The translations under genes were made by a program, and so were the position numbers. Below, in pieces: positions 849 through 31,160 of a stretch of 32,036 bases of DNA. The notes under the pieces were generated by a model, which was given only the letters and a program-made list of their open reading frames with translations, ran no database searches and was not told where the DNA came from. Within the stretch, counting starts at the first letter, position 1. Every line of letters starts with the position of its first letter. The stretch lies in IMG/VR virus record IMGVR_UViG_3300004463_000307, positions 1-32,036 of that record; one strand, written 5' to 3'. Origin of the DNA: a virus.

Positions 849-924
849 TGGGGTGACCGATGAGTAACGCTCTCACTTCTCCGCCTTCACAGGGCGACGC
901 TTTTACTTCTAAGCTACGGAAACC
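849..924 (-). tRNA. tRNA-His(GTG), aberrant D- and T-loops
   Basis: The anticodon loop is CTGTGAA (GTG). The extra 5' G opposite discriminator C73 is the hallmark of tRNA-His and is present. The acceptor has two mismatches. The T-loop reads AGCGTTA instead of TTCRANN, and the D-loop lacks the G18-G19 pair that normally docks with it. The normal elbow contact is therefore missing on both sides. CCA is encoded. Confidence 0.8.
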
Positions 925-10154: not shown

Positions 10155-10231
10155 TGGTGGGACTGGAAGGAATCGAACCTTCAACATTCACCTTAAGAGG
10201 GTGCTGCTCTGCCTGATTGAGCTACAATCCC
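10155..10231 (-). tRNA. tRNA-Lys(CTT)
   Basis: Anticodon loop CTCTTAA (CTT) on stem CACC/GGTG, acceptor GGGATTG/CAGTCCC, T-loop TTCGATT, discriminator A, encoded CCA. Last gene of the second array. Confidence 0.94.
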
Positions 10232-10235
10232 ATTT

Positions 10236-10324
10236 TGGAGCCTTGTGCGGAGTCGAACCGCTTTTGTCATGTCTTACGAGGAGCTACCTCTGCCCTGACC
10301 GTGTTACCGTTACACTATCGCAGC
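10236..10324 (-). tRNA. tRNA-like gene with enlarged anticodon region, identity unclear
   Basis: A good D-arm (GTGT-AACGGTA-ACAC), a normal T-loop TTCGACT on a GCGG/CCGC stem and a CCA end are present, and the spacing to neighbours is that of a tRNA gene. The anticodon arm is abnormal: GTCA and TGAC pair, but enclose 26 nt rather than 7, and those contain an inner GAGG/CCTC hairpin. The acceptor strands pair poorly. It may be a decayed or chimeric tRNA, a tRNA with a 19-nt insertion, or a tRNA mimic. No amino acid can be assigned. Confidence 0.55.
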
Positions 10325-10329
10325 ATATA

Positions 10330-10406
10330 TGGTGGAGCCAGAGAGAATCGAACTCTCCACACCTTGCTTGCAAAGCAAAGTCGCCAGCCTTGGAACATGT
10401 GACCCC
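10330..10406 (-). tRNA. tRNA-Ala(TGC)
   Basis: Anticodon stem TTTGC/GCAAG around TTTGCAA (TGC), acceptor GGGGTCA/TGGCTCC with wobble pairs, T-loop TTCGATT, discriminator A, encoded CCA. The G3-T70 wobble pair that AlaRS uses is present. Confidence 0.92.
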
Positions 10407-10410
10407 ATAT

Positions 10411-10485
10411 TGGTGGCTCAGGAAGGAATCGAACCTTCATCTGGTGGTTCGTAGCCACCCATTCTATCCGTTATACTACCGAGCC
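10411..10485 (-). tRNA. tRNA-Arg(ACG)
   Basis: Anticodon loop CTACGAA (ACG, read as inosine after A34 deamination) on stem GTGG/CCAC, acceptor GGCTCGG/CTGAGCC, T-loop TTCGATT, encoded CCA. It would read CGU, CGC and CGA but not CGG. Confidence 0.93.
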
Positions 10486-10488
10486 TTA

Positions 10489-10561
10489 TGGTTGCAATCC
10501 TAGGTACCGAGCCTAGCTAGACGGACTTATGAGATCCATCCGGTCACCTGACACGACTGCA
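10489..10561 (-). tRNA. tRNA-Met(CAT), elongator-like, short D-loop
   Basis: Anticodon loop CTCATAA (CAT) on TGGAT/GTCCG, acceptor TGCAGTC/GATTGCA, discriminator A, encoded CCA. The D-arm is reduced to GTC-AGGT-GAC with a 4-nt loop, and the T-loop is CTCGGTA instead of TTCRANN. Because a separate Ile(TAT) exists, this is more likely elongator Met than lysidine-modified Ile. Confidence 0.82.
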
Positions 10562-10564
10562 TTA

Positions 10565-10640
10565 TGGTTGCGGGGGGAGGATTCGAACCTCCGACCTGTT
10601 GCTTATGAGGCAACCGAGCTGACCACTGCTCTACCCCGCA
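10565..10640 (-). tRNA. tRNA-Met(CAT), initiator-like
   Basis: The D-arm and anticodon arm (AGAGCAG, AGCTCGG, CTCATAA, AGGTC) follow the pattern of bacterial initiator tRNA. The three G-C pairs usual below the anticodon are replaced by GTTGC/GCAAC, and position 1-72 is a T-A pair rather than a mismatch. Canonical T-loop, encoded CCA. Confidence 0.85.
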
Positions 10641-10643
10641 TTA

Positions 10644-10720
10644 TGGTGGTCCCTGTAGGACTCGAACCTACGACCTTCTCTGTGTAAGAGAGACGTTCTA
10701 GCCAACTGAACTAAGGAACC
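10644..10720 (-). tRNA. tRNA-Val(TAC)
   Basis: Perfect anticodon stem TCTCT/AGAGA around CTTACAC (TAC), T-loop TTCGAGT, discriminator A, encoded CCA. Confidence 0.95.
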
Positions 10721-10723
10721 TTA

Positions 10724-10796
10724 TGGTGGGCGATACAGGTACTGACCCTGTGTCAACAGAATATAAGTCTGCCGCTCTGCCTTTGAGCTAATCGCC
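10724..10796 (-). tRNA. tRNA-Ile(TAT)
   Basis: Anticodon loop CTTATAT (TAT) on CAGA/TCTG, acceptor GGCGATT/ATCGCC-type pairing, discriminator A, encoded CCA. The T-loop is GTCAGTA, off-consensus at position 54. A TAT anticodon reads AUA directly, so tRNA(Ile)-lysidine synthetase is not needed. Confidence 0.9.
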
Positions 10797-10800
10797 TATA

Positions 10801-10871
10801 TGGTGGCCACGCACGGAATCGAACCGTGTATTAAGGCTTAGAACACCTGTTACTTATCCTAAGACGTAGCC
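10801..10871 (-). tRNA. tRNA-Arg(TCT)
   Basis: Anticodon loop GTTCTAA (TCT), four-pair stem AGGT/GCCT, short D-arm TTA/TAA, perfect acceptor GGCTACG/CGTGGCC with wobble, T-loop TTCGATT, encoded CCA. It is the first tRNA downstream of the RNase P RNA (7 nt gap). Confidence 0.9.
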
Positions 10872-10878
10872 ATATTTT

Positions 10879-11108
10879 GAGTGTATCTGTAAGCGGGATT
10901 CTGTTTATCTCGTCATCTATCTTGAATTACTGTTGCCAGCAATTTCTTTGCGCTTACGCTTGCATACGAATAAGTATTTAGCCGTTTCACCCTGACTTAA
11001 CAGGTTCGTCACTGTTCGCAACTCTACCCTCACGGGCGACGGGCGTTACCCGCTATTCAATTGTATGTCCCGACTTTCCTCTCTTACGAGCGACGAGTCA
11101 ATATACTC
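10879..11108 (-). ncRNA. rnpB: miniature bacterial-type RNase P RNA
   Basis: The conserved core of bacterial RNase P RNA is present in order: GAGGAAAGTCGGGAC (CR I and 5' P4), GGGTAACGCC, GCGAACAGTGACGAACC, AGGGTGAAACGG (CR II), TTGCTGGC, AGATAGATGACGAG, and ACAGAATCCCGCTTACAG (CR V and 3' P4). P4 forms AAG-U-CGGGA/TCCCG-CTT with the universal bulged U. P1 is GAGTATAT/ATACACTC with one mismatch, P2 CTCGTC/GACGAG, and P3 a tiny GTAA-capped hairpin. Compared with the E. coli RNA, P12, P13 and P14 are missing and the P15-P17 region is replaced by a minimal hairpin without the GGU that binds tRNA CCA. Length is 230 nt against 350-400. One base separates it from tRNA-Gly. Confidence 0.93.
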
Positions 11109-11109
11109 A

Positions 11110-11185
11110 TGGTGCGAGATCGGGGAATCGAACTCCGATCTCCTGTTTGGAAGACAGGCATAATGAACCATTATACTAATCTCGC
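11110..11185 (-). tRNA. tRNA-Gly(TCC)
   Basis: Perfect anticodon stem CCTGT/ACAGG around CTTCCAA (TCC), acceptor GCGAGAT/ATCTCGC, T-loop TTCGATT, discriminator A, encoded CCA. Its CCA end is one base from the RNase P RNA. Confidence 0.95.
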
Positions 11186-11190
11186 ATATG

Positions 11191-11267
11191 TGGAGCCGCT
11201 TTTCGGATTCGAACCGAAGACCTGATGCTTACAAAGCAACTGCTCTAACCAACTGAGCTAAAGCGGC
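11191..11267 (-). tRNA. tRNA-Thr(TGT)
   Basis: Anticodon loop TTTGTAA (TGT) on GTTGC/GCATC, acceptor GCCGCTT/AAGCGGC, discriminator T, T-loop TTCGAAT, encoded CCA. Confidence 0.95.
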
Positions 11268-11270
11268 ATA

Positions 11271-11344
11271 TGGTTGGCGACCAAGGTTCTGCCCCTTGGA
11301 CTGCTCCGTATCAGAGAACTGTGATACTATTTCACCAGTCGCCA
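11271..11344 (-). tRNA. tRNA-Ile(GAT), aberrant D- and T-loops
   Basis: Anticodon loop CTGATAC (GAT) on GTTCT/GGAGC, perfect acceptor TGGCGAC/GTCGCCA, discriminator A, encoded CCA. The T-loop is GGCAGAA rather than TTCRANN and the D-loop (AATAGTA) lacks GG, the same paired loss as in tRNA-His at 849. Confidence 0.85.
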
Positions 11345-11358
11345 TTGAATTGTTAATG

Positions 11359-11434
11359 TGGTGGGCTTGGCGAGAGTTGAACTCGCTATCGTCTGCTTAA
11401 AAGGCAGATGCTGTACCAAGTTAGCTTCAAGCCC
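11359..11434 (-). tRNA. tRNA-Lys(TTT)
   Basis: Perfect anticodon stem TCTGC/GCAGA around CTTTTAA (TTT), acceptor GGGCTTG/CAAGCCC, T-loop TTCAACT, discriminator A, encoded CCA. First tRNA of the second array, 8 nt after the upstream terminator's T-tract. Confidence 0.95.
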
Positions 11435-11442
11435 TTATATAG

Positions 11443-11464
11443 AAAAAAGGAGCTTATGCCCCTT
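11443..11464 (-). terminator. intrinsic terminator upstream of the second tRNA array
   Basis: Seven-pair stem AAGGGGC/GCTCCTT (with one G-T) around ATAA, then TTTTTT on the minus strand. It lies between the 46-aa membrane peptide gene and tRNA-Lys(TTT), mirroring the promoter, mini-gene, terminator order before the first array. Confidence 0.78.
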
Positions 11465-11641: not shown

Positions 11642-11670
11642 ATTATACCACACGATAATTTTAATGTCTA
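11642..11670 (-). promoter_or_regulatory. promoter TAGACA-17-TATAAT for peptide and second array
   Basis: The -35 is TAGACA (11665-11670), the extended -10 is TGGTATAAT (hexamer 11642-11647), and TAGA follows. It overlaps the end and stop codon of the glycosyltransferase gene. Confidence 0.8.
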
Positions 11671-13195: not shown

Positions 13196-13344
13196 GAATA
13201 TACCACGAAAAACCACACGTAGTATCTGAAAGTAGAATCTGGGTAGCACATCACAAGGAATACATTTATTTCGGCGACACCTTACCCAAACTGATAATAA
13301 ACATAATAAAGAACTGGAATAACGATAGGAATTTGGTAATGTAA
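13192..13344 (+). CDS. hypothetical protein, 50 aa
   Basis: I chose the ATG overlapping the previous stop (ATGA) over an upstream ATG at 13147. MRIYHEKPHVVSESRIWVAH continues with a beta strand and a helix LPKLIINIIKNW. No known domain. The short coupled arrangement supports translation. Confidence 0.65.
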   Translation: MRIYHEKPHVVSESRIWVAHHKEYIYFGDTLPKLIINIIKNWNNDRNLVM

Positions 13345-13763
13345 TGAAAGTATTATTTTTAGACATAGACGGTGTAGTAAACAAGCGAGATAACTTCGAT
13401 CGCTCAAAAGGCATGGGTCCTTACCCAATTGATTCATACTGTGCCTTTCTGGTAGGCCGTATAACGCTCTCTACGGGCTGCAAAGTCGTACTCAGTAGTT
13501 CATGGCGAAATCACCCTGAAGGCGTTCAGAACGTCTCTCAGAGGGTCGTAGAGCTATTAGACAAGACGGGTAACGAAGGCAAGTATCGTGGCGACGAAGT
13601 TCAGGCATGGCTTGACAGGCATCCTGAAGTCACAAAGTACGCAATTCTCGACGATGACATGGATTTCTACGTCTACCAAGCACCCAACTACTTTAAGACA
13701 CGATTTGAAGACGGTTTGACTGATGAAATCGCTAATGCAGTAATCGAGCACCTGAATGCGTAA
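13344..13763 (+). CDS. HAD-superfamily phosphatase-like protein
   Basis: Motif I is complete (VLFLDIDGVVN, Asp7 nucleophile and Asp9), motif II is VVLSSSWR, and the acidic motif IV is YAILDDDMDFY. At 139 residues it has only the core Rossmann fold with a small cap. Phage proteins of this type belong to the HAD_2/SAK-like group, whose members include nucleotide and nucleic-acid 3' phosphatases, sometimes in RNA repair. In a phage with large tRNA arrays an RNA end-healing role is conceivable, but no kinase or ligase partner is visible. Confidence 0.85.
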   Translation: MKVLFLDIDGVVNKRDNFDRSKGMGPYPIDSYCAFLVGRITLSTGCKVVLSSSWRNHPEGVQNVSQRVVELLDKTGNEGKYRGDEVQAWLDRHPEVTKYAILDDDMDFYVYQAPNYFKTRFEDGLTDEIANAVIEHLNA

Positions 13764-15494: not shown

Positions 15495-15628
15495 CCTTCA
15501 CAGTTCAAGTTATCTTGTGGGTCGATTAGAGCGTCTAGAAGCACTGCTTCTTTCTTCTCGTCTCCGTTAGCTTCTGCCATTGCCTGAGCAATCTTGTCTA
15601 ACATTTCTTTAGTTTCTAGTTCGGTCAT
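15485..15628 (-). CDS. small acidic protein ending in a CxxC tail, 47 aa
   Basis: ATG overlaps the reductase stop (ATGA). MTELETKEMLDKIAQAMAEA continues as acidic helix and ends LNCEGCQ. The C-terminal CEGC resembles the redox-active C-terminal cysteines of ribonucleotide reductase (here CVGGNC). Placed between the reductase and a membrane-anchored gene, it may exchange disulfides with reductase or NrdH. Role inferred from motif and position only. Confidence 0.7.
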   Translation of the reverse strand: MTELETKEMLDKIAQAMAEANGDEKKEAVLLDALIDPQDNLNCEGCQ

Positions 15629-17544
15629 ACTTCGCAGTTTCCTCCCACGCAAGCTAATTCTTTCGCACCTGTAGTCTCGTCAGTCGTCTCGTAGTCTGAG
15701 AGCTTTGAGAAATCGATGTCTTTGAATGCAGCTCGGCGTTCATTATATTGTTGTTCTGTTATTTCTTCGTAAGGTGCGAGCTGGTAAACGTGTTCTGATC
15801 GTGGCAAGAATGACAGACCTCCAACGTCTTCCCAGTTATTGTAAACAAAGTCTTTGATGTCAGCCCATTCTTCGTTTCCAGCGTAAATGGTGACAGACGG
15901 ATTGTGTTCAGTGAAATGTCTCTTAAGTCGCTTCCACTCAGCAAGCATGTCGAGAGCGGTTACGTCTTTGTTGGTTTTTGCACCATCGGGTGCTTTCATT
16001 GGGAACTCCATAACCATAGTCGAGGCAGTAGAGGTTGAGTAGCCAACTTCAGGCACTACAGGGATTCCCTGATCTTGTACCATCTTCATTAACGGGTCGT
16101 TGACTGAGATACGTACACGGCGGATGTAGTACTTTGAGAACCATGGGTGCATACCCGATCCTACGTACAGAAGCTGTCCTGAGTTGCCGTGTGGCTTCAC
16201 ACAGGTGATTGCAGTAGAACGGTTAGCACCGAATCGATCTGCATATTCTTCGTTTACTTCTATTGAGTATTCACGAAGCTCATCAAGGCTCTCGTCTTTG
16301 CGGATTAGTTCATTGTCGAAGTAACCAGTAATTGATACGCCGAGAAGTTGCTCTTCATCACAGTTCTTCTTCCAATCGTCACCTAAGTAACCGAAGTCAG
16401 TGAGAGTAGCTTGGTAAGTTCCTAGTAATGTCGCAAGACGCATCTTACGCTTTAGGTCTTCCATGGTGTCGTTAGGGCGTACCACGATTGAAGTAAGATT
16501 ACAGAATTGCTTAGAACGCAAATAAATCTCTCCACATGGGTTAACTCCTACCTGTTTCTGGTCTTTGAGAGCAGCCCAGCGTCGTGCTGGCACTTGGTTC
16601 TCTAGCTCGCCACGGTTGAAGATACCACGTTCACCTGTACCAGAAGCCACAAGAGCGTTCCATTCATCGGTGAATTGTTCCTCGGTTGGCTTGACAGCAT
16701 ATACGGCGGAATTATTAGCCATAGAACGCTGACCGTTTTCTTCCCAGAAAGCACCAGCTTTTGAGTCACGCATTTCTTTGTCGTCTAGCTCAGATAGTGA
16801 GATAAGAGCTGAACGGCGTACGCCACCTGCAACTACGATCAAACCGATCTGGCAGATAATGTCGTGTAGTTCGAGAGCTGTTAGTTTGCGACCTTGAGCA
16901 GCAAACATTTTCTCACGGGTGAACTTCATTAGGTCAATCAAAGGTTGAGGACCAGAAGCACGGCCACCCATAGTCTGAAGACGAGCACCAGCAGGACGTA
17001 CGAACGAGTAATCGATCTCTACATCTTTACCTTCTGACCATGCAGTAGCGGCGAGAAGAAAGGCTTCACACCAACCGTCACGGCTGTCGTCTACGATAAT
17101 GTTAGGTAGTTTTTCGCCAGTCTGTTCTTTGATGACTGGAAATTGAGATACGTTCTCTTTTTCTACGGCAAAACCACAGCCAGCACCACACATAGAAACA
17201 TACATGATCTCTGATAGGTCTTTCCATGTCGTAGGAGCCACGTACGCACAGTTGTAAGCCGTTACATTCGTTGCATCGGCTGCTGCACCAGCTGACCACA
17301 AAAGTCGCATAGAAGGGCATATTTCTTGGTTTAAAAGAGCTTCACGGATTTCGGAGTATTCTTCGTCTGTGAGTTTGTCATTTAGCTTACCATTCATGTA
17401 AGCCATGTAACGATCTATTGCTTCTACCCAAGTTTCACGGCGACCAAGTTCAGGTTGCCATCGTGAGTAGAATTGATAGAAGATCATCTCTTGGTATGAT
17501 GATTCGAAGTACTTAGAGCTCTCAGAAATTATATCTGTCGGCAT
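15625..17544 (-). CDS. nrdJ: class II (adenosylcobalamin-dependent) ribonucleotide reductase
   Basis: The catalytic motifs are clear: Cys99 in YNCAYV, NPCGEI at 335-340 with the thiyl-radical Cys337 and Glu339, Cys348 in CNLTS pairing with Cys99, and ITCVKPHGNSGQLL near the substrate phosphate site. The C-terminus CVGGNC supplies the shuttle cysteines. No small radical subunit is encoded beside it, and the 639-residue length and motif style match the monomeric cobalamin-dependent enzymes such as that of Lactobacillus leichmannii. It makes deoxynucleotides for phage replication without oxygen or iron, but needs coenzyme B12 from the host. The ATG overlaps the nrdH stop by one base. Confidence 0.93.
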   Translation of the reverse strand: MPTDIISESSKYFESSYQEMIFYQFYSRWQPELGRRETWVEAIDRYMAYMNGKLNDKLTDEEYSEIREALLNQEICPSMRLLWSAGAAADATNVTAYNCAYVAPTTWKDLSEIMYVSMCGAGCGFAVEKENVSQFPVIKEQTGEKLPNIIVDDSRDGWCEAFLLAATAWSEGKDVEIDYSFVRPAGARLQTMGGRASGPQPLIDLMKFTREKMFAAQGRKLTALELHDIICQIGLIVVAGGVRRSALISLSELDDKEMRDSKAGAFWEENGQRSMANNSAVYAVKPTEEQFTDEWNALVASGTGERGIFNRGELENQVPARRWAALKDQKQVGVNPCGEIYLRSKQFCNLTSIVVRPNDTMEDLKRKMRLATLLGTYQATLTDFGYLGDDWKKNCDEEQLLGVSITGYFDNELIRKDESLDELREYSIEVNEEYADRFGANRSTAITCVKPHGNSGQLLYVGSGMHPWFSKYYIRRVRISVNDPLMKMVQDQGIPVVPEVGYSTSTASTMVMEFPMKAPDGAKTNKDVTALDMLAEWKRLKRHFTEHNPSVTIYAGNEEWADIKDFVYNNWEDVGGLSFLPRSEHVYQLAPYEEITEQQYNERRAAFKDIDFSKLSDYETTDETTGAKELACVGGNCEV

Positions 17545-28859: not shown

Positions 28860-31160
28860 TTAAGATACAGCTGTAGCAGCGATAGATGAAACTACAGATG
28901 GGTCTTTGATGACACCACCACGGAAGAATGATCCACGGAGTACAACTTCGTTACGCTGGTAAGCAGAGTAAACAGTACCGTCAATCTCGTAAGATGCAGA
29001 ACCGTCAACGTCGTACTTCAGACCACCGCTTGAGCGACCTGTGAATGAACGTAGGTCAGCGTAGAATACGGCTTGGTCAATAACAACGTTTTGTCCCTGT
29101 ACAACAAATGTCTTTGTGTCAGCAGAGTTTAGGGTAGGAAGTAGGTCGTTTGGAACAACTACGAAAGGTGTACCAAGAACAGATCCCTGTCCGATTTCGA
29201 TCAACAGTGATTCCTGGTTAGCGTCGATAGCTGCACCCTTAATCATTGCAAGTGACTTAGCGTTCATGATCAATGAACCAACAGTTGTAACGTCTGACAT
29301 TTCAGCTACGGCTTGTGCAAATTGGATGATACCATTGCTAATGTCGTAAGTTGTCTTGTTGCCAGTTGCGTTAACGGCCTGTTGTAGACGAGCGATAACG
29401 AGCTGGGCACGCTTACGGTCGTAGTCGTTACGGTAACCTTCAGCTACGTCGGCAAGGATGTCGGCAGCAGCGAACTTGATTACGTTGATAGAGATAGGCG
29501 TTACAGCAGCCATTTCTTCCATCTTATCGGTGTTAGGACCGTAAGTTGGGATTGAGATTGGCTTCAAACGATTATCAGTCGTGTCAGGTGATGGAACGTC
29601 TCCAAGGGCACCGATTGCAACAGGTTGCATGTCGATGTCAGAAGTACGGCTCAACCAGCTGAACTCTAGGCTGTTAGTTTCACGCCATTGTGTAGCGTCA
29701 ACTAGACCCTGGTAGTTAGTACGGATACCAACAACTTGGTTGTAAAGTTCTGGAGCGATAACGAAGTTACCAAGATCTTCAAGAGTCATGGCAGCGTTTA
29801 CGATTTTAGCGTCCTTAAGAGCCTGTAGGTTACGGGTGTTAATTTCGCTAAGAACCTTACGGCCTTCAACGCTTCCCATACGTTCTACAGCTACAGCAGC
29901 GTTAAGCTGCTTTGCGAAGATTTCGTCTGAGCTAAGACCGTCGTATGCGTTCTTAACTTCTTCTTCTTCTTCCTTAACGTATGCAGGAGCTTGTGCCTGG
30001 GTGTCAAGGGCGTTTTGAGCAAGTTCTTTAGTAGCAGCAAGTTCATCTTTCAAAGATGCAACTTCTGACTTAAGAGCATTTGCTACAATTTCTGCGATTT
30101 GTTCAGCAGTCATTTCTAATGTTTCCTCATTTTTATTTGTTTTGTTTTCAACTTCTTCTTCAGGAGCTTCTTCGACAGGTTCAACCACTGGGGCTTCTTC
30201 TGACTTAGGTGCTTCTTCCGCTTTAGTCTCTGGGTTAACAACTTCTTCAAGCTGTTCTTTTACTTCAGGTGCTTTTTCTTTAGCTTCAGTCGTTTCGACT
30301 TCTTGCTTAAGTTCTTCACCGTCAGCAGGTTGTGGAGCCGCTGTACCGCTTGTATCACGGACTACTGCTTCACTTTCTACCTTGACCTCAGTTTCAGCAG
30401 GTGCTTCAACTTCTTTCTCAGTAGTTTCTTCTACTTTGGTTTCTTCAACTACAGGTGTAGCTTCTTCAACCTTTTCGGTTTCAACCGCTTCTGTTTCTTT
30501 TACTTCTTCAACTTCAGTTGGTTCAGTTACAGGAGTTTCCTCTTTAACAGGAGCGTCATTTTTCTGTTTTGTCATGCTTTCTTCCTCAACGGCTTCCGAC
30601 TTAACAAATTTTACATTGCTAAGAATGGTTTCTTCGATACCAGAGGTATCTAGTCCGTCTTGTTGAGAGCGTTCAAGTGAATTGTGAACTATCTCGTTAA
30701 ATTGGTTTAGTTTAGCGTTGTAATTATTAGGTACAACTACCTGTGATAGACCAACAAGTTCGTGTGCGTAGTAAGTTCTATCCTCTTCGTTAGGCCATGG
30801 TCCAATAGTTTCGATTGAGAAACTGTTAGAGAATCCACCAACCAATAGGTCATATGCTAAACGAGCGTAAGGATTTTCCTTAACTGCGTATTTGATTCCT
30901 TGTATAGCAACGCGATTACCCTCTTTGATCACGCCTTGGACTTTTCCAATTAGTGTTCCGAGTGAGTCTTTATGATCGCCTGTCAACTGTCCGCCGTATT
31001 GGGATACGTCTAATGAGTTGATGTCGTAGCGAGTACCACTTCGCATTACTGAGTCGTCAGTAATAGTTAGACCGTTAGGGAAAGAAATTACTCCTTCGCC
31101 CTCGTCTACAAAGCTTCCGTTAGAAACCGAGATTTGTAATTGGTTTTGTGTTTTTGCCAT
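28860..31160 (-). CDS. fused prohead protease, scaffold-like linker and HK97-type major capsid protein
   Basis: Residues 1-170 form an S78-type prohead protease, with His63 in GDHKDSLGTLIGKV and the Ser strand GGFSNSFSIETIG (111-115). A roughly 150-residue Glu/Val/Thr-rich region (about 195-345) follows, then a coiled-coil delta-like segment (about 350-400), then the HK97 capsid fold from about residue 440 (LEDLGNFVIAPELYNQVVGI, TSLEFSWLSR-type A-domain residues). Two internal in-frame ATGs at 30575 and 30113 each have GAGGAA in front, so scaffold-capsid and capsid-only products are likely. The full-length start has only a weak AGAGAAAG site, which would keep protease copies low. Confidence 0.92.
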   Translation of the reverse strand: MAKTQNQLQISVSNGSFVDEGEGVISFPNGLTITDDSVMRSGTRYDINSLDVSQYGGQLTGDHKDSLGTLIGKVQGVIKEGNRVAIQGIKYAVKENPYARLAYDLLVGGFSNSFSIETIGPWPNEEDRTYYAHELVGLSQVVVPNNYNAKLNQFNEIVHNSLERSQQDGLDTSGIEETILSNVKFVKSEAVEEESMTKQKNDAPVKEETPVTEPTEVEEVKETEAVETEKVEEATPVVEETKVEETTEKEVEAPAETEVKVESEAVVRDTSGTAAPQPADGEELKQEVETTEAKEKAPEVKEQLEEVVNPETKAEEAPKSEEAPVVEPVEEAPEEEVENKTNKNEETLEMTAEQIAEIVANALKSEVASLKDELAATKELAQNALDTQAQAPAYVKEEEEEVKNAYDGLSSDEIFAKQLNAAVAVERMGSVEGRKVLSEINTRNLQALKDAKIVNAAMTLEDLGNFVIAPELYNQVVGIRTNYQGLVDATQWRETNSLEFSWLSRTSDIDMQPVAIGALGDVPSPDTTDNRLKPISIPTYGPNTDKMEEMAAVTPISINVIKFAAADILADVAEGYRNDYDRKRAQLVIARLQQAVNATGNKTTYDISNGIIQFAQAVAEMSDVTTVGSLIMNAKSLAMIKGAAIDANQESLLIEIGQGSVLGTPFVVVPNDLLPTLNSADTKTFVVQGQNVVIDQAVFYADLRSFTGRSSGGLKYDVDGSASYEIDGTVYSAYQRNEVVLRGSFFRGGVIKDPSVVSSIAATAVS
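30111..30128 (-). promoter_or_regulatory. internal start site for capsid-only product
   Basis: GAGGAAA (30122-30128) followed by an in-frame ATG at 30113, opening MTAEQIAEIVANALKSEVAS, the start of the coiled-coil delta-like segment. The product would be 417 residues, close to a normal HK97-type capsid precursor. Confidence 0.6.
30573..30587 (-). promoter_or_regulatory. internal start site for scaffold-capsid product
   Basis: GAGGAAG (30581-30587) and, 5 nt on, an in-frame ATG (30575) opening MTKQKNDAPVKEETPV, exactly at the boundary between protease and acidic linker. Confidence 0.6.

Follow-up and report, generated by a model that had tools for sequence, protein, structure and literature searches.

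A class A RNase P RNA encoded within a phage tRNA array

Introduction

The RNA of RNase P is a near-universal ribozyme that has been treated so far as a cellular gene, and in yeast mitochondria it is encoded, as RPM1, between tRNA genes. In CPR bacteria, Lui et al. 2021 (PMC8172020) described diverged RNase P RNAs from which P12-P14, P16-P17 and the UGG/GGU element are missing, as is most of P15 in a single genome. A natural minimal RNase P RNA has been ascribed to Pyrobaculum (Lai et al. 2010, as cited in PMC4919922). In phages, theta ribozymes adjoin tRNAs and have a proposed role in phage tRNA processing (Kienbeck et al. 2024, PMC10879173), and GOLLD RNA is found in phage-derived tRNA clusters (PMC6582537). 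The full-text literature that we searched, whose scope excludes preprints and most subscription journals, held no report of a phage RNase P RNA. As far as we have seen, it is not RNase P RNA itself but its phage-borne, tRNA-array form that is new. We describe here such a gene from a 32,036-nt stretch of viral DNA (IMG/VR record IMGVR_UViG_3300004463_000307, positions 1 to 32,036), hereafter the window.

Results

Identity and structure of the RNA

Using cmscan with Rfam, window positions 10874-11109 on the minus strand were matched to RF00010 (bacterial class A RNase P RNA) with 105.5 bits and E=1.6e-31 over the full length of the model (1-367 of 367), just 5.5 bits above the gathering cut-off of 100 bits; in a relaxed Rfam scan RF00010 was the top clan member at this locus. 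The covariance-model check proposed in a preliminary description of this DNA thus came out in favour of class A. The RNA measures approximately 230 nt over its mature span and 236 nt by the model match, and is composed of the following elements.

10879..11108, minus strand: RNase P RNA gene, mature span from P1 to P1' (RF00010 match)
11100..11108, minus strand: P1 5' strand GAGU.UAUU, with its partner GAUA.ACUC at 10879-10887 (eight standard pairs and an A.C mismatch)
11092..11097, minus strand: P2 5' strand CUCGUC, with its partner GACGAG at 10909-10914 (6/6 pairs)
11081..11090, minus strand: shortened P3 hairpin CUC-GUAA-GAG (sequence and Rfam alignment)
11068..11081, minus strand: CR I and P4 5' strand, the bulged U being 11073 (P4 covariation in phages and bacterial relatives)
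10982..11052, minus strand: specificity domain (sequence coordinates; covariation), containing the next five elements
11040-11052, minus strand: P8
11026-11037, minus strand: P9
11003-11015, minus strand: CR II, ACAGUGACGAACC
10991-11004, minus strand: P11/P12 stub hairpin CCUG-UUAAGU-CAGG
10982-10994, minus strand: CR III
10950..10963, minus strand: GCAA (J5/15) and remnant P15 (GC-GUAA-GC) without GGU (aligned to relatives with a much longer P15)
10925..10944, minus strand: P18 with a GCAA tetraloop (eight pairs, two-sided changes in 8/8 across relatives)
10890..10904, minus strand: CR V and P4 3' strand, ACAGAAUCCCGCUUA (Rfam, base conservation, covariation)

P4 is held by GAGGAAAGUC, in which AAG-U(bulge)-CGGGA is paired with UCCCG-CUU, and further class A motifs are ACAGUGACGAA, GGGUGAAA, the GCAA 5' of P15 and ACAGAAUCCCGCUUA. 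The ordered core motifs, the bulged U of P4 and the P1 and P2 pairings, all of which had been read from the letters alone in the preliminary description, are present by the RF00010 match, the sequence motifs and the pairing. Both the P4 helix with its bulged U, backed by covariation, and the conserved core bases of CR I-V place the RNA in class A. The L15 GGU, a common though not universal class A trait that binds the tRNA CCA, is missing, which is no bar to membership because most CPR copies also lack it (PMC8172020). The window RNA is a phage-encoded class A RNase P RNA within a tRNA array. Its single-sequence folding energy was not significant (z -1.28) and is uninformative, P4 being a pseudoknot beyond the reach of such folding.

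The inventory of lost parts needs some amendment. P12-P14 and most of P15-P17 had been described as absent; P13-P14, P16-P17 and most of P15 are indeed gone, but the P11/P12 stub hairpin persists. Likewise, the GGU loop had been noted as replaced although the phage tRNAs encode CCA, and both observations are correct, but the loop is equally missing from bacterial relatives.

The tRNA array and the surrounding record

The gene is enclosed in an array of tRNAs on its own strand.

10155..11434, minus strand: tRNA array enclosing the RNase P RNA (ARAGORN)
11110..11185, minus strand: tRNA-Gly(UCC) with encoded CCA, 1 nt upstream of the RNase P RNA (ARAGORN, Rfam)
10801..10871, minus strand: tRNA-Arg-like gene with a short D arm and encoded CCA, 7 nt downstream (Rfam)
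11642..11670, minus strand: promoter-like TAGACA-17-TATAAT preceded by TG, upstream of the array (consensus match only, 11/12)

ARAGORN called 26 tRNAs in the record and made no call for the tRNA-Arg-like gene downstream of the RNase P RNA, which Rfam placed at 10804-10871 with 29.3 bits against a cut-off of 29; CCA was encoded in all 28 tRNAs checked. The spacing of 1 and 7 nt given earlier is confirmed, with the tRNA-Arg being the weak member, and the array position means that the RNA has to be excised from a tRNA precursor, as had been argued, provided that it is co-transcribed. Co-transcription with the tRNAs is probable, since the promoter-like site precedes the array and the part of the array leading up to the RNase P RNA has no predicted promoter.

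The array's first tRNA is preceded, downstream of the promoter-like site, by a terminator-like hairpin (11447-11464, minus strand), which may be an attenuator or a chance feature. At 11268-11358 (minus strand) there is an uncalled tRNA-like sequence with a CCA-like end and an unusual T loop, by eye tRNA-Ile(GAU), and at 852-923 (minus strand) a tRNA found by Rfam only (39.2 bits) that reads by eye as tRNA-His; histidine is absent from the ARAGORN list.

The record encodes a tape measure protein, a minor head protein, a head-tail adaptor and a GH25/CHAP endolysin; the virion genes, the tRNA array and the virus record itself identify the RNA gene as a phage gene and not host contamination. A protein search with the VWA-like protein of the window yielded no relatives, and the large protein at 28860-31160 had no match among phages. 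Window positions 13344-13763 (plus strand) encode a HAD_SAK_2 protein (HAD of the RNA-repair type), a relative of which (37% identical) precedes the RNase P RNA of L015 by about 60 nt; a link of this protein to tRNA repair is possible. Neither the window record nor any of 50 phage records yielded an RnpA gene; as the window record is a 32 kb fragment, a phage RnpA may be located elsewhere.

Host origin

Bacterial and archaeal genomes scanned with a CR I/P4/CR II pattern gave 14 hits, belonging to Burkholderiales, other Pseudomonadota and three MAGs (L155, L156 and L163, one titled Parcubacteria), and these MAGs carry a compact RNA of the window type. A careful tree built from 60 RNAs nests the window RNA and the phage copy L206 (= L050) within Parcubacteria-type rnpB with support of 100/100, their neighbours being L248-L250 (99/93), and rejects a single clade of all sampled phage copies (p-AU 0.0024). 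A quick 129-row tree did not reject a single phage clade (p 0.227); it was unstable, with a constrained run finding a far better tree, and was replaced by the careful one. The placement, together with the rejected single clade, indicates that at least the window/L206 pair was acquired from hosts independently of the other sampled phage copies. The window RNA apparently derives from a Patescibacteria (Parcubacteria-type) host, and we infer a Parcubacteria host for the phage. An RnpA gene was found in two of three host genomes.

A second gene of the window bears on the same lineage.

15625..17544, minus strand: class II ribonucleotide reductase (RNR), up to 66-69% identical to Patescibacteria enzymes

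The identities to Patescibacteria enzymes were 69%, 68% and 66.5%, compared with 47.6% for the best phage RNR. In Patescibacteria L248-L253 and L284, the class II RNR gene has rnpB as its downstream neighbour (about 40 nt beyond the RNR end in L284), and in the family of L155, L156 and L163 (six genomes) rnpB adjoins a class II RNR 59-60% identical to that of the window. The two genes may possibly have been captured together, which is a guess, as 4.5 kb separate them in the window record.

Size and reduction

P12-P14 and GGU are missing even from the close host copies, which measure 273-284 nt; this agrees with the losses described in CPR bacteria (PMC8172020). The shortest full match among those listed for 188 genomes of the host class was 276 nt, and in the G096 family nearly all copies among the matches listed were at least 277 nt, with one doubtful match (G532, 227 nt, 44.5 bits). 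G532 and G614 (194 nt) were considered as short copies in bacterial bins and set aside; neither has tRNAs nearby. Compared with close hosts, the window copy has lost approximately 40 nt, namely most of the P15 arm, a segment following P4 and part of P3. That the small form is mainly a phage invention was considered, a view mostly refuted by the Parcubacteria relatives: by this comparison, most of the smallness of the window RNA is inherited from the host lineage.

Conservation and selection

Covariation was analysed in an alignment of 19 sequences (the window RNA and relatives) with 31 named pairs, P1 and P2 being left out and judged by comparing their pairing with that in relatives; the P2 pairing is retained there with its letters changed. 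Standard pairing is found in 97.4% of the cells of these pairs; the alignment has a covariation score of 0.701, compared with 0.210 when shuffled and 0.09-0.145 when slid, and 152 two-sided changes, compared with at most 32 when slid. The window sequence served to draw the structure, which favours the unslid version in the count of paired cells but hardly explains the 152 two-sided changes. P4 is paired in 99.3% of cells, with two-sided changes at three of its eight pairs.

The window RNA is 59-72% identical to its relatives, and a capture does not look recent for that reason. It retains 75 of 84 host-invariant columns (89%), with P15 accounting for five of the nine invariant bases lost, against 47% of the columns that are 50-80% conserved (24-47% for poorly conserved bases overall). 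This difference points to purifying selection and fits a selected catalytic RNA.

RNase P RNA in other phages

A pattern scan of virus contigs with CR I and CR II returned 116 contigs; among 50 motif-selected IMG/VR records, 48 matched RF00010 (E<=0.1) and 40 exceeded the cut-off. Two more pattern scans enlarged the copy set, and 58 copies were examined in total, 36 of which (30 non-redundant) lie in same-strand tRNA arrays, meaning that three or more tRNAs on the strand of the copy are no more than 1.2 kb from it. At least this many copies were found, and the earlier impression of rarity in phage tRNA arrays is therefore not supported. In the stretches examined, 357 tRNAs around the array copies lie on the strand of the RNA and one on the opposite strand. 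Twelve copies have tRNAs within 10 nt on both flanks; in many phages hundreds of nt separate the copy from its next tRNA. Copies without tRNAs nearby were not counted as phage evidence, since bacterial contamination may be among them.

P4 and the conserved regions, on whose conservation in related phages the preliminary description had staked its case, are retained in the relatives. At the P4 pair not fixed by the search pattern, four pair types occur and 51 of 52 non-redundant phage copies are Watson-Crick; the P1 strands of phage copies pair with their own partners at a mean of -18.6 kcal/mol, against -7.4 kcal/mol with foreign ones. The window's own P1 and P2 strands were unremarkable in this cognate/non-cognate test because cut points vary and P1 contains a mismatch.

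Some copies in the phage collection that are without specificity-domain signatures retain an L15 loop resembling AAAUAG/GGGUAG. They comprise forms of about 200-240 nt (L118, L122, L137, L208-L211, L213) and of about 150-165 nt (L018, L052, L149-L152), the latter situated directly 5' of a tRNA, with the 3' strand of P1 abutting it almost without a gap. Six of these copies, of those tested in Rfam, scored 60-74 bits (E 1e-15 or better), under the curated cut-off. Our reading is that the specificity domain has been lost in these phage copies of approximately 150-240 nt. L118 (6-363, minus strand; IMGVR_UViG_3300017987_000005) combines more than 25 tRNAs and a tmRNA (100.8 bits) with an RNase P RNA in which specificity-domain signatures are lacking.

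BLASTN searches of isolated phages gave no real match for the window RNA and zero matches for an L118-type copy, and the matches listed for an L152 query fell under its flanking tRNAs. A canonical phage copy searched against the isolated-phage collection returned nine records, with no clear isolated phage among them. The INPHARED entry MW495066.1 (L153, 'Microcystis phage MaAM05') was rejected as phage evidence; its rnpB sits among FabI, EngB, MtgA and GlyS, and the entry looks like a bacterial chromosome fragment filed under phages.

Discussion

We consider the window RNA, with a probability of about 0.7, to be a functional class A RNase P RNA gene that was captured from a Parcubacteria-type host, possibly with the RNR, placed in a phage tRNA array and co-transcribed with it, and that pairs with host RnpA and matures phage tRNAs, an activity that we infer. 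The RNA would be transcribed within the tRNA precursor, its 5' end would be freed by 3' maturation of the tRNA-Gly and its 3' end by an RNase P cut ahead of the downstream tRNA. Once released, the phage RNA would bind RnpA, which is likely to be that of the host, and would provide extra capacity for 5' trimming of the 28 phage tRNAs, making the set independent of scarce or inactivated host RNase P RNA. The need may arise where the host RNA is limiting or destroyed, or where RnpA is shared. A point against this reading is that P15, part of the region binding the tRNA 3' end, is almost absent.

The near-loss of P15 would also suit an RNA that keeps its protein-binding core, is a poor enzyme and acts as a decoy or competitor, sequestering host RnpA and slowing host tRNA maturation, as would the lack of an RnpA gene in the window record and the 50 phage records. 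Yet a decoy requires neither the tRNA-recognising specificity domain (CR II, CR III, P8-P11) nor the core catalytic motifs, all retained and covarying, and the phage's own 28 tRNAs need RNase P; retention of the tRNA-recognising domain in particular leads us to regard a pure decoy as unlikely. Engineered RNase P RNA-tRNA chimeras are able to cleave themselves, and the next tRNA is 0-7 nt away here and in many phages, so an RNA that chiefly cuts its own array and frees its own 3' end at the downstream tRNA, without acting in trans, can be envisaged; in many other phages, however, hundreds of nt lie before the next tRNA, and nothing prevents action in trans, which makes this restricted role improbable too.

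The host origin of the gene and its trimming relative to host copies would be expected of a captured rnpB carried as a functionless passenger. Such a passenger would hardly have retained its helices and 89% of the host-invariant bases despite 59-72% identity to relatives, nor recur in the tRNA arrays of other phages, and we consider it very unlikely. Some motif hits without tRNAs do look bacterial (MW495066), but a chance match or an assembly contamination with bacterial rnpB is scarcely credible for the window, given the E value of its match, its flanking tRNAs in a record with tape measure and head proteins, and a sequence unlike every host copy found.

For phages more generally, we lean towards a widespread strategy of bringing their own RNase P RNA, with self-maturing tRNA arrays, repeated captures from hosts and, in some, reduction by opposite routes, affecting either the CCA-binding P15 arm, as in the window, or the whole specificity domain; the latter forms, of about 150-240 nt, would be among the smallest natural RNase P ribozymes. 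The recurrence in tRNA arrays suggests that where a phage has a large tRNA set it supplies the maturing catalyst as well, and makes phage tRNA function directly testable. The phage copies also offer natural minimal RNase P RNAs, some minus a whole domain, for structure-function work, and because of them rnpB is not a safe marker of cellular DNA in metagenomes when used alone.

Comparison with known systems

GOLLD is, like the window RNA, a large structured RNA gene in phage-type tRNA arrays, without sequence or known functional relation to it. Theta ribozymes are likewise catalytic RNAs of phage genomes tied to tRNA processing, but are HDV-like and self-cleaving, act on 3' trailers and are not RNase P. 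Yeast RPM1 shares with the window RNA the excision of an RNase P RNA from a tRNA precursor and differs in lineage and protein partner. The Pyrobaculum RNA, as far as it is described in the citing source, is a precedent for the other phage short forms; it is archaeal, and the window RNA retains its specificity domain. With RF00010 class A RNAs the window RNA shares the full-length model match, the P4 pseudoknot with bulged U, CR I-V, P1, P2, P8-P11 and P18; it differs from typical members (approximately 340-400 nt) by its 236 nt, by the lack of P13-P14, P16-P17 and GGU, and by its place in a phage tRNA array. The RNase P RNAs of CPR bacteria show the same losses (PMC8172020), and the window RNA groups with such bacteria; their copies are chromosomal, whereas the window copy is phage-borne and shorter than the listed host copies of the lineage, except for the doubtful G532.
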